Assembly: GCF_028737215.1 (NCBI RefSeq)
Contig: NZ_JAQZAM010000018.1
Location: 1-64,000 of the forward strand
Reading direction: 5' to 3'
Length of the DNA stretch: 64,000 bases
DNA from: Actinomycetospora chibensis
GTDB taxonomy: Bacteria; Actinomycetota; Actinomycetes; Mycobacteriales; Pseudonocardiaceae
The notes beneath the pieces are model-generated. The model was not told where the DNA came from. It did not search any database and worked only from the letters and a program-made list of their open reading frames with translations. The translations under genes were made by a program, and so were the position numbers. Below, in pieces: positions 36,768 through 51,476 of this stretch; the stretch's first letter is position 1, and the number at the start of each line of letters is the position of its first letter.

Positions 36768-37628
36768 TCAGAAGACCAGCGTCGTCCGGCCCGTGATGAC
36801 GACACGGTCGGCGCAGTGCGCGGCGACGGCGCGGGCCAGCACGCTGCGCTCGACGTCGGCGCCGCGGCGGGTGATGTCGGCGACGGTGTCGCGGTGCGAG
36901 ACGCGGGCGACGTCCTGCTCGATGATCGGGCCCTGGTCGAGGTCCTCGGTGACGTAGTGGGCCGTGGCGCCGACCAGCTTCACCCCGCGCTCCTTCGCCT
37001 GCGCATAGGGCCCGGCGCCGACGAAGGCCGGCAGGAACGAGTGGTGGATGTTGATCGCGGGCACGCCGAGGGCGTCGAGGAAGCCGCCGGTCAGGATCTG
37101 CATGTACCGCGCGAGGACGACGAGGTCGACGCGGCCGGCGAGCAGCTCGATCTGCTGCTTCTCGGCGATGTCCTTCGTGTCCCGGGTGATCGGAATGTGC
37201 GCGTAGGGCACGCCGAACCGGGCGACCTCGTCGGCGAGGTCGGGGTGGTTCGATACGACCTGGACGATGTCGACCCCCAGCTCGCCGCGGCGCTGCCGCC
37301 ACAGCAGGTCGAGCAGGCAGTGGTCGAGCTTCGAGACGAACACCGCGACCCGCGTGCGCTCGGCGGCGATCCGCAGCCGGAAGGTGATGTCGTACCGGTC
37401 GGCCACCTCCTCGCCGAACTCGGCGGTGAGCTCCTCGAGGGCCTCCTCGAGGCCCGGCAGCCGGAAGACCAGCCGCATGACGAAGTGCCCACCCTCGGGG
37501 TCGGTGGTGTCCTGGTCGGACTGCACGATCGTCGCGTTGTGGGCGTGCAGGAACGAGCTGATCGCCGCCACCAGCCCGGGCTGGTCGCGGCAGGAGACGA
37601 GCAGCCGCCCGACATCGGTGTCACTCAC
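36768..37628 (-). CDS. purU: formyltetrahydrofolate deformylase, 286 aa
   Basis: Hydrolyses 10-formyl-THF to formate and THF. N-terminal ACT domain (VGRLLVSCRDQPGLVAAISS) and C-terminal formyltransferase fold with VFVSKLDHCLLDLL, NHPDLAD, INIHHSFLPAFVGAGPY (catalytic Asn/His) and the later Asp in HYVTEDLDQGPII. GTG start overlaps the soxG stop (GTGA). In methylamine- and sarcosine-oxidation operons purU drains the C1-folate made by the oxidase; it plays that role here. Confidence 0.95.
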   Translation of the reverse strand: MSDTDVGRLLVSCRDQPGLVAAISSFLHAHNATIVQSDQDTTDPEGGHFVMRLVFRLPGLEEALEELTAEFGEEVADRYDITFRLRIAAERTRVAVFVSKLDHCLLDLLWRQRRGELGVDIVQVVSNHPDLADEVARFGVPYAHIPITRDTKDIAEKQQIELLAGRVDLVVLARYMQILTGGFLDALGVPAINIHHSFLPAFVGAGPYAQAKERGVKLVGATAHYVTEDLDQGPIIEQDVARVSHRDTVADITRRGADVERSVLARAVAAHCADRVVITGRTTLVF

Positions 37629-38284
37629 CGGGCCGACCCGGCGGACCCGAGCCCCCGGAAGCCCGTGACCTCGACGGCGGAGCGGGAGCCGGCGTCGAGC
37701 AGCGCGTCCCACAGGTACTGCCCCGACGAGCGCTCGCAGTGCAGCAGGTAGGACCGGACGCCCGAGACGTCGTCGCGCACGACGTCGGTGACCACCGCTG
37801 CGACCGACGTCCGCAGCGCGGTGCCGTCGGGAGTGACGGTGTCGGCGAGGTCGATCGCGCAGACGCCGGCCAGGACGGTGGTGGCCGCGGGGCCCTGCAG
37901 CCGCATCAGCGCCCGGCCGTGGGTGAGGTCGAGGACCGAGGTGAACTCGCCGGTGCCGGCCAGGCGCTCCTCGAGGGCGGTGCGCAGCGCCGGGGCCGTG
38001 CCCGGCGCGCCGAGCGTGAGCCACTCCCCGGGAGCGGACCCGACGAGCAGCACCTCCCCGGACCCGACGTCGGTGTGCTCCGTGCGCCCGAACCGCACGC
38101 CCAGGGCCTTGCGGCTCGCGCCGTCGAAGGGGGCGCGGACGAGCACCTTCGCGAGCGGGGTCTCGTCCGAGAGCGTGGACGCGCCGGTCGCGGCCCGCGC
38201 GCTGACCTCCCACCCGTCGAGGACGGTGGCGGGGGAGGCGGCGATCGGGCTGCGGGCCACGGCGGCTGCGGTGGTCTCAGACAC
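37625..38284 (-). CDS. soxG: SoxG/MgdD-type gamma subunit, 219 aa
   Basis: Gamma subunit of a heterotetrameric sarcosine oxidase/N-methylglutamate dehydrogenase; GcvT-like fold. Recognisable segments: VRFGRTEHTDVGSGEVLLVG, EWLTLGAPG, FTSVLDLTHGRALMRLQGPA and VRSYLLHCERSSGQYLWDAL. ATG start overlaps the 3' end of soxA by 8 bp. It helps form the folate-binding interface at which the methyl-derived iminium is trapped as 5,10-methylene-THF. Confidence 0.88.
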   Translation of the reverse strand: MSETTAAAVARSPIAASPATVLDGWEVSARAATGASTLSDETPLAKVLVRAPFDGASRKALGVRFGRTEHTDVGSGEVLLVGSAPGEWLTLGAPGTAPALRTALEERLAGTGEFTSVLDLTHGRALMRLQGPAATTVLAGVCAIDLADTVTPDGTALRTSVAAVVTDVVRDDVSGVRSYLLHCERSSGQYLWDALLDAGSRSAVEVTGFRGLGSAGSAR

Positions 38285-50107: not shown

Positions 50108-50153
50108 TGGCGGGGCTACTGACGGCGGCTGACGCGACGCGGGGCTCGACCCG

Positions 50154-51476
50154 ATGAAGGATCCCGCGGAGCGGGGGCTGCGCGAGTCGGCCACGTTCGA
50201 CCGCGCCACGATCGCCGCGATCCAGCACGCCGCCCGCACGGGCGTCTACGACATCCGCGGCTGGGGCGCCAAGCGCGCCGTGCCGCACTTCGACGACCTG
50301 CTGGTGCTCGGGGCGTCGATGTCGCGCTACCCGCTCGAGGGCTACCGCGAGCGCTGCGACACCGACGTCGTGCTCGGCGACCGCCACGCCACGCGGCCCC
50401 TGCACCTCGACATCCCCGTGACGATCGCCGGCATGAGCTTCGGCGCGCTCTCCGCCCAGGCCAAGGAGGCCCTCGGGCGCGGTGCCAGCGAGGTCGGCAC
50501 GTCGACGACGACCGGCGACGGCGGCATGACCGACGAGGAGCGTGGCGAGTCGAAGACGCTCGTCTACCAGCTGCTCCCGAGCCGGTACGGCATGAACCCG
50601 GACCACCTGCGGGCCGCGGACGCGATCGAGGTCGTGCTCGGTCAGGGTGCCAAGCCCGGCGGCGGCGGGATGCTGCTCGGCCAGAAGATCTCCGACCGCG
50701 TCGCCGAGATGCGGACGCTGCCGCCCGGTATCGACCAGCGCTCGGCGTGTCGGCACCCCGACTGGACGGGTCCCGACGACCTCGCCATCAAGATCGGTGA
50801 GCTGCGGGAGATCACCGACTGGGAGAAGCCGATCTACGTCAAGGTCGGGGCGACACGCACGTACTACGACGTGAAGCTCGCCGTGGCCGCGGGCGCCGAC
50901 GTCGTCGTGGTGGACGGGATGCAGGGCGGCACCGCCGCCACGCAGGAGGTGTTCATCGAGCACGTCGGCATCCCGATCCTCGCTGCGATCCCGCAGGCCG
51001 CGCAGGCGCTGCAGGAGCTCGGCGTGCACCGGAAGGTGCAGCTCATCGTCTCGGGGGGCATCCGCACCGGCGCCGACGTGGCGAAGGCGATGGCCCTGGG
51101 CGCCGACGCCGTCGCGATCGGCACCGCCGCCCTCATCGCGCTCGGCGACAACGACCCGCAGTACGCGGCGGAGTACGAGGCACTCGGGTCGGGAGCCGGG
51201 TACTACGACGACTTCCAGGACGGGCGTGACCCGGCCGGGATCACCACCCAGGACCCCGAGCTCTCGGCGCGCCTCGACCCCGTCGAGGGCGGGCGCCGCG
51301 TGGCGAACTACCTGCGGGTGCTGACCATGGAGGCCCAGACGCTCGCCCGCGCCTGCGGGAAGGGGCACGTGCGTCACCTGGAGCCCGAGGACCTGGTCGC
51401 GCTGACCATCGAGGCGGCCGCGATGGCCCGGGTGCCGCTGGCGGGCACGTCGTGGATCCCGGGACGCGGCCTGTAG
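50154..51476 (+). CDS. mgsC: FMN-binding glutamate synthase-type catalytic subunit, 440 aa
   Basis: TIM-barrel flavoprotein corresponding to MgsC/GlxD and the GltB synthase domain. Segments: PVTIAGMSFGALSAQAKEA (about 84), TTTGDGGMTDEERG, EVVLGQGAKPGGGGMLLGQK (about 159), DGMQGGTAATQEVF, and the phosphate site SGGIRTGADVAKAMALGADA. The cysteine cluster that binds 3Fe-4S in GltB is not visible (only scattered Cys). Makes N-methylglutamate from gamma-glutamylmethylamide and 2-oxoglutarate if the pathway assignment holds. Confidence 0.9.
   Translation: MKDPAERGLRESATFDRATIAAIQHAARTGVYDIRGWGAKRAVPHFDDLLVLGASMSRYPLEGYRERCDTDVVLGDRHATRPLHLDIPVTIAGMSFGALSAQAKEALGRGASEVGTSTTTGDGGMTDEERGESKTLVYQLLPSRYGMNPDHLRAADAIEVVLGQGAKPGGGGMLLGQKISDRVAEMRTLPPGIDQRSACRHPDWTGPDDLAIKIGELREITDWEKPIYVKVGATRTYYDVKLAVAAGADVVVVDGMQGGTAATQEVFIEHVGIPILAAIPQAAQALQELGVHRKVQLIVSGGIRTGADVAKAMALGADAVAIGTAALIALGDNDPQYAAEYEALGSGAGYYDDFQDGRDPAGITTQDPELSARLDPVEGGRRVANYLRVLTMEAQTLARACGKGHVRHLEPEDLVALTIEAAAMARVPLAGTSWIPGRGL

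Follow-up and report, generated by a model that had tools for sequence, protein, structure and literature searches.

The stretch of DNA analysed here, called the window, comprises the 64,000 nucleotides at the start of contig NZ_JAQZAM010000018.1 of Actinomycetospora chibensis. At positions 36768-51476 it carries two divergent arms of genes, all of them intact, which probably encode a complete N-methylglutamate pathway for methylamine, as judged from the predicted proteins. The minus-strand arm reads purU-soxGADB-gmaS. The purU gene (36768-37628) encodes a formyl-tetrahydrofolate deformylase of 286 residues (TIGR00655, 362 bits, cut-off 286). Next to it lie the genes of a four-subunit SoxBDAG-type enzyme, here termed set 1: soxG for a divergent, mgdD-type gamma subunit of 219 residues (37625-38284; TIGR01375, 58 bits, cut-off 144, with GCV_T and SoxG above their Pfam cut-offs), soxA for an mgdC-type alpha subunit of 944 residues with a C-terminal folate-binding domain (38277-41111; TIGR01372, 828 bits, cut-off 1164; GCV_T, 224 bits), soxD for an mgdB-type delta subunit of 91 residues (41108-41383; TIGR01374, 100 bits, cut-off 116.5; PF04267), and soxB for an mgdA-type flavin adenine dinucleotide (FAD) subunit of 430 residues (41428-42720; TIGR01373, 538 bits, cut-off 529), the proposed N-methylglutamate dehydrogenase. 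The arm begins with gmaS, or glnT, for a putative gamma-glutamylmethylamide synthetase of 454 residues (42782-44146; TIGR03105, 594 bits, cut-off 470); its start was set at 44146, the open reading frame being readable from 44248. The divergent promoter region (44147-44280) contains two boxes, GGTGTGGACTTAGAACC and GTGTCAACCCCGTCAC in the letters of the window, which are largely conserved in an alignment of nine same-genus rows including the window; no clear long palindrome that might serve as a regulator operator was seen in this gmaS-gntR intergenic stretch. The plus-strand arm starts with a GntR/FCD regulator of 239 residues (44281-45000; PF00392, PF07729), continues with a six-gene transport unit (45164-48490) and ends with mgsA (48519-49412), whose 297-residue glutaminase-type product starts with MCGIIG (GATase_6/7), mgsB (49400-50107) for a GXGXG subunit of 235 residues (PF01493, 33.3 bits, cut-off 32.5), and mgsC (50154-51476) for a synthase subunit of 440 residues that binds flavin mononucleotide (FMN) (PF01645, Glu_synthase, 309 bits). 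A preliminary description of the window had named a GmaS-like ligase, SoxBDAG, PurU, a GntR regulator, a permease and MgsABC, and profile and Pfam matches recovered each of these genes in its place. The set is unlikely to have come together by chance, since it recurs in same-genus genomes and in Methylophaga.

The ligase is the part of the cluster whose active site can be compared residue by residue. Among solved structures the closest relatives of the window GmaS are 9qur, a glutamate-methylamine ligase (414 bits), and 7cql, which is RhGmaS (405 bits); the third-best is a glutamine synthetase with 236 bits. The published residue numbers of RhGmaS (PMC7948447) were placed on the sequences with a single offset that fitted all 25 of 25 letters. 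Of the 23 sites examined, 22 are kept in the window protein, among them the catalytic residues Asp177, Glu186 and Arg312, and six of the seven residues of the methylamine pocket (Lys30, Tyr147, Gln175, Asp177, Glu179, Glu186, Asn188). The only difference is Gln175, which is replaced by alanine. The window GmaS has Ala48 and Trp300 and thus lacks Asp50' and the Glu-flap glutamate of glutamine synthetases, both of which are present in a paralogue from the same genome (L199). In a tree of 53 rows drawn from a larger set, the window GmaS falls into a clade of 44 rows (support 99/93) together with both solved GmaS proteins. Outside this clade remain three paralogues, L075 and five type IV glutamine-synthetase-like rows, all on long branches; two paralogues of the same genome are among those outside. 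The phylogeny that the preliminary description had proposed as a check therefore places GlnT, in agreement with its residues, with the solved GmaS proteins and apart from the glutamine synthetases.

The three linked genes mgsABC encode the amidotransferase, GXGXG and FMN synthase domains by which an N-methylglutamate synthase is recognised. MgsC contains three cysteines but not the CX5CX4C cluster motif of glutamate synthases. It is 97% identical to the MgsC of the same-genus genome G302, and its identity among the best 60 of 243 plasmid records is 78-88%. The notion that the cluster is merely a side system of ammonia assimilation or glutamate synthesis, with no role in methylamine use, draws on the automatic names glutamate-ammonia ligase and FMN-binding glutamate synthase; it can hardly be right, given the missing Asp and Glu of GmaS and the missing motif of MgsC, and an ammonia-ligase reading of glnT was rejected on the active-site residues.

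The genes of set 1 are named sarcosine oxidase by automatic annotation. Its four subunits stand in the order B-D-A-G and are linked to gmaS and mgs, which is the arrangement sought for an N-methylglutamate dehydrogenase. In a SoxB tree of 67 rows without outgroup, a single branch with 100/100 support separates 21 rows from 46, the window SoxB being among the 46. The side with 21 rows holds two solved sarcosine oxidases, the SoxB of the second set of the window, two glyA-linked copies, L204, whose soxB adjoins a dimethylglycine-oxidase-like gene, L098, nine actinobacterial copies whose surroundings, as far as seen, contain neither gmaS nor mgs, and five alphaproteobacterial copies, four of which are linked to gmaS/mgs. 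The other side comprises 24 gammaproteobacterial copies linked to gmaS/mgs, L169, the window SoxB, 16 other linked actinobacterial copies and four unlinked ones; most linked rows came from the MgsC search and are hence linked by construction. A first tree had contained a distant FAD outgroup (branch length near 10), L224 and L092, which were dropped before it was rebuilt without outgroup; the duplicates L001, L203, L221 and L225 had been excluded before the trees were made. In the approximately unbiased (AU) test, a clade of the window SoxB with the sarcosine oxidases was rejected (p 0.0013). The SoxB phylogeny likewise suggested in the preliminary description thus separates the protein from the sarcosine oxidases, but places four unlinked rows on its side.

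The genome possesses a second set, glyA-soxBDAG, 9 kb from the cluster. In the window it extends on the plus strand from 60714 to 63592 with glyA (60714-62018), soxB (62015-63283) and soxD (63293-63592), and its soxA, which starts at 63589, runs past the window end. The genes after soxG, named by eye, are dimethylglycine-oxidase-like, a small folate-type gene, a GntR gene, a serine-dehydratase-like gene, an IclR gene and a Rieske-type gene. The SoxB of this set groups with the solved sarcosine oxidases, and the set looks like the usual run from betaine via sarcosine to serine; it would thus allow set 1 to serve a different substrate. All 17 other genomes of the genus yielded an alpha subunit that shares about 40-44% identity with the SoxA of set 1, the same level as the SoxA of the second set. 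The neighbouring glyA-sox set, which the preliminary description had taken to make a plain sarcosine function of set 1 less likely, is thus real, extends beyond the window and, with the rejected clade, upholds that argument.

The profile scores of the two sets were also compared. With 828 bits against TIGR01372, the SoxA of set 1 resembles the gmaS-linked copy of Acidithiobacillus (834 bits), unlike the SoxA of the second set (1114 bits). The second set outscores set 1 on all four subunits. The NCBIfam sarcosine cut-offs are passed in set 1 by soxB only; in the second set, which served as a control, they are passed by soxB and soxD, soxA (1114 bits) and soxG (99 bits) remaining below. Since the control also misses two of four, the cut-offs were no longer used as an argument against set 1 being a sarcosine oxidase. 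That identity of set 1 was rejected on the tree and on the presence of a separate set.

Linkage and co-occurrence point in the same direction. Among the best 10 of 401 plasmid records in a SoxB search, four were at least 58% identical, and the three of them that were fetched all have the order purU-soxBDA-gmaS-mgsABC (L265-L267). The other six were at most 51.6% identical; three of these were fetched (L268-L270), lie nearer to the second-set SoxB, in two cases with glyA, and have no gmaS or mgs within 25 kb. SoxB identity alone is not a divider, because the plasmid of the unfetched match H123 (51.2%) bears an MgsC (H21) about 25 kb away and the linked gammaproteobacterial copies are only 50-58% identical. 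In 149 genomes of Actinomycetota, this SoxB type was present in seven of the 10 with an MgsC of at least 50% identity versus four of the 139 without (Fisher p 1.3e-7), the types having been labelled by hand, G084 by similarity rather than by tree, and G091 having been excluded as a long branch. Within the genus, nine of the 17 other genomes contain a SoxA of the set-1 type (at least 74% in the best stretch), each of them together with type I mgs genes; of the eight genomes without this SoxA, seven lack those genes.

The proposed pathway would begin with the uptake of methylamine by the permease unit. GmaS, to judge from its active-site residues and its place in the tree, would ligate methylamine to glutamate with adenosine triphosphate. 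By homology and linkage, MgsABC would form N-methylglutamate, either from gamma-glutamylmethylamide or from methylamine and glutamate. SoxBDAG, corresponding to MgdABCD by tree and linkage, would convert N-methylglutamate, its presumed substrate, to glutamate and pass the carbon to tetrahydrofolate as methylene-tetrahydrofolate. FolD, which scores over its cut-off and is encoded elsewhere than in the cluster, and PurU could take the carbon on to formate, and formate dehydrogenase to CO2, as the genes or gene-like matches suggest. The cell would gain ammonium and reducing power; no claim is made for methylamine as a carbon source. Both arms are probably under the control of the GntR/FCD protein.

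Several observations weigh against this pathway. On the part of the dehydrogenase, a clade uniting the window SoxB solely with gammaproteobacterial copies was rejected (p 3e-101), because other rows lie between them. The four linked alphaproteobacterial SoxB proteins (L097, L099, L101, L167) fall among the 21 rows that include the sarcosine oxidases, as though recruited separately. At 24 columns that part sarcosine oxidases from gammaproteobacterial Mgd, the window SoxB has 13 Mgd letters, four sarcosine oxidase letters and seven others, a mixture that the four unlinked copies largely share. These copies (L216, L218, L219, L220) are its closest relatives outside the genus, with 76-77% identity, and have neither gmaS nor mgs next to them; the contig of L219 also carries a type IV mgs set, and the genomes of L216, L218 and L220 have no MgsC of at least 50%. 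In the genus, the exception to the co-occurrence described above is G302 (84% complete), which has a type I gmaS-mgsABC, no soxBDAG beside gmaS, where other genes follow (L271, G302:C30:17000-26044), and no set-1-type SoxA that could be found. On the part of the one-carbon genes, purU adjoins soxG only in the nearest locus of the genus (L054) and was not seen beside it in L055/L273, L081, L082/L272 or L263. The matches for the formate dehydrogenase alpha subunit stay under the curated cut-off, with 630 bits of the required 666 for the best and 556 for the next. The best match (L256, G000:C2:233156-235018) has an in-frame TGA between SCNRT and HAPSV, at a site where we would expect selenocysteine. 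A copper amine oxidase gene (L243, G000:C4:152934-154142) might provide another means of oxidising methylamine. The pocket alanine at the position of Gln175, which recurs in type I and type II actinobacterial rows, also belongs here. Confidence in the pathway was lowered because purU is not kept beside the set in the genus, because G302 lacks the tetramer and because the cut-offs are indecisive.

Some of these points would suit a cluster in which set 1 is a second oxidase of sarcosine, or of another N-methyl amino acid, that merely adjoins gmaS and mgs. This is what the four unlinked relatives suggest, some of whose neighbours look folate- or betaine-related by eye, and what G302 with its gmaS-mgsABC and the soxB score above the sarcosine family cut-off would allow. 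We consider it unlikely in view of the AU test, the separate glyA-soxBDAG set with its dimethylglycine-oxidase-like gene, the soxA score close to that of a gmaS-linked copy, and the co-occurrence of this SoxB and SoxA type with gmaS-mgs. The assignment of SoxB as MgdA is good but not closed, given the four close relatives that stand apart from gmaS and mgs.

Alternatively, the ligase and synthase might act on a small amine other than methylamine, for example ethylamine, ethanolamine or isopropylamine. RhGmaS accepts ethylamine with a Michaelis constant of 58 uM, compared with 27 uM for methylamine, in the assays described (PMC7948447), and the pocket of the window GmaS differs at Gln175. The best named family of the permease is that of ethanolamine permease, though below the cut-off, and a gamma-glutamylethanolamide is reported as a product of Streptomyces GlnA4 in the account cited (PMC6529630). 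A run of genes that combines folate-binding domains and purU fits only a one-carbon product, however; relatives with an equal gene set include the methylotroph Methylophaga, and GmaS clusters with the solved GmaS proteins, so that a different amine is quite improbable as the substrate. The preliminary description had left the choice between methylamine and a relative such as ethylamine or isopropylamine. Methylamine is to be preferred, because the folate-binding GCV_T domains in the dehydrogenase and the purU gene beside it suggest that the carbon removed is a one-carbon unit.

The transport unit had been noted in the preliminary description only for its permease, and the other five genes were not listed there. 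In order, the unit encodes a membrane protein of 101 residues (45164-45469), a protein of 147 residues with two predicted membrane helices (45466-45909), one of 60 residues with a single predicted helix (45906-46088), the APC-type amine permease of 483 residues (46085-47536; AA_permease_2, with TIGR00908, ethanolamine permease, at 196 bits under a cut-off of 382), a protein of 226 residues predicted to have an N-terminal helix and a beta-rich domain (47550-48230), and a membrane protein of 87 residues (48227-48490) that matches DUF6677 only below its cut-off. For five of the six proteins no named family was found above a cut-off, the second and third having no family match. The 226-residue protein, modelled from four sequences with a mean predicted local distance difference test score of 79.7, gave 403 Foldseek matches, none of which reached E 0.001. 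The gene order is nevertheless kept: across 22 loci examined, the permease occurred in 15 distinct stretches (two further loci repeat a stretch), of which 14 have all six genes in the same order and one (L247) lacks the last; G306 provides one more. The hosts are Actinomycetospora, two other actinobacterial genomes, Methylophaga, in two loci of which the permease is 62-63% identical, and plasmids of alpha- and betaproteobacteria. Relatives of the permease (E 1e-100) were found in three of 292 genomes of the phylum, all three with gmaS and mgs, about 20 kb apart in G041. Five plasmid units that were fetched have no gmaS-mgs within 12-14 kb, and one adjoins a glutamine-synthetase-like gene (29%), which argues against a strict role in methylamine uptake; G300 and G299 have a type I cluster without the unit. 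In the open-licence literature, a permease with small partner proteins was not the subject of any paper found, by title. If confirmed, this conserved unit would name five membrane protein families.

In the 18 genomes of the genus (G000, G296-G312), gmaS and soxB are in one locus in nine, in G308 the parts are on separate contigs, and G302 is without the tetramer. In six, the only gmaS is 53-56% identical and is accompanied by mgsABC and by a protein related at 62-66% to the Mycobacterium FAD protein, and in G311 no MgsC of at least 50% was found. In the phylum such an MgsC occurs in 19 of 296 genomes. At least 80 loci were named, 45 of them actinobacterial by title. Among the matches listed, none of these 45 has a soxBDAG-type tetramer; a single FAD oxidoreductase is adjacent in 33 (including L103), lies within 10 kb in four and was not seen in eight. 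Among the 35 non-actinobacterial loci listed, 26 have a SoxB above 250 bits in the stretch, and 24 have purU there; an automatic count also gave 26 but missed L156, L166 and L170 and, misled by a GcvT-type gene, wrongly included L171 and L174. The oxidoreductases beside gmaS-mgsABC belong to at least two families. G038, G074, G214 and G333, which have gmaS-mgsABC, gave no SoxA match at E 1e-40; a FAD protein follows mgsC in three of them, and none was seen in G333. Where SoxA was not found, the single FAD protein is a candidate one-gene N-methylglutamate oxidase. The next gene after it in Streptomyces NBC_01320 is that of an S-(hydroxymethyl)mycothiol dehydrogenase, which would fit a release of free formaldehyde. 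A second mgsABC type, with an MgsC of 52-55%, occurs with another glutamine-synthetase-like ligase (30-32% to GmaS) in L076, L077, L079, L089 and L091-L093; in G306 it adjoins a second soxBDAG copy. A wider reading, whose prospects fall somewhat short of even, is that 45164-48490 encodes a multi-subunit small-amine uptake system in which five membrane proteins join an APC permease, that this unit is passed on as a whole between Actinomycetota and Proteobacteria and was captured here by the methylamine pathway, and that most actinobacterial gmaS-mgsABC clusters use a single FAD N-methylglutamate oxidase instead of the tetramer.

The automatic names glutamine synthetase, glutamate synthase and sarcosine oxidase hide a possible use of methylamine in actinobacteria. 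By title, nothing on Actinomycetospora and methylamine was found in the open-licence literature. The full gene set of the indirect methylamine route had been recognised in the preliminary description, and this part stands; the route, called there best known in Proteobacteria, is not confined to them, in view of the at least 45 actinobacterial loci and of two Mycobacterium strains, sp. 141 and 155, for which the pathway was proposed in 2015 in the account cited (PMC5023230). The window is a further case, not a new kind. In the tabulated gene numbers of the Mycobacterium strains, Gma and MgsABC form one run as in the window, and MgdABCD have distant numbers (Table 2 of PMC5023230), whereas the MgdABCD-type genes of the window adjoin gmaS. 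The window also provides access to a question left open in the SAR11 account cited, where two soxBDAG sets are present and either could be the N-methylglutamate enzyme (PMC3160333): two comparable sets occur in the present genome, and because linkage and tree distinguish them, the question becomes testable. In Methyloversatilis universalis FAM5, mutants in mgsC and mgdD are described as losing growth on methylamine (PMC5023235). The FAM5 genes gmaS-mgsABC-mgdABCD are the same eight as in the window, likened by gene content and not by sequence; unlike the arrangement described for FAM5, the window has two divergent arms, purU, a GntR/FCD regulator and a six-gene permease unit. Methylophaga aminisulfidivorans (L159) has soxBDAG-gmaS-mgsABC followed by the permease unit, with the inner order of the window; it differs in its single direction of transcription, in SoxB (58%) and GmaS (45%) identity, and in that purU was not seen in the stretch examined. 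The FAD-subunit histidine of heterotetrameric sarcosine oxidase (PDB 2gag, 1vrq), which has a role at the flavin, is conserved at position 198 of the window SoxB. That enzyme has the same four subunits but lies on the other side of the tree, and Gly356 of 2gag is tyrosine in the window and tryptophan in gammaproteobacterial Mgd.

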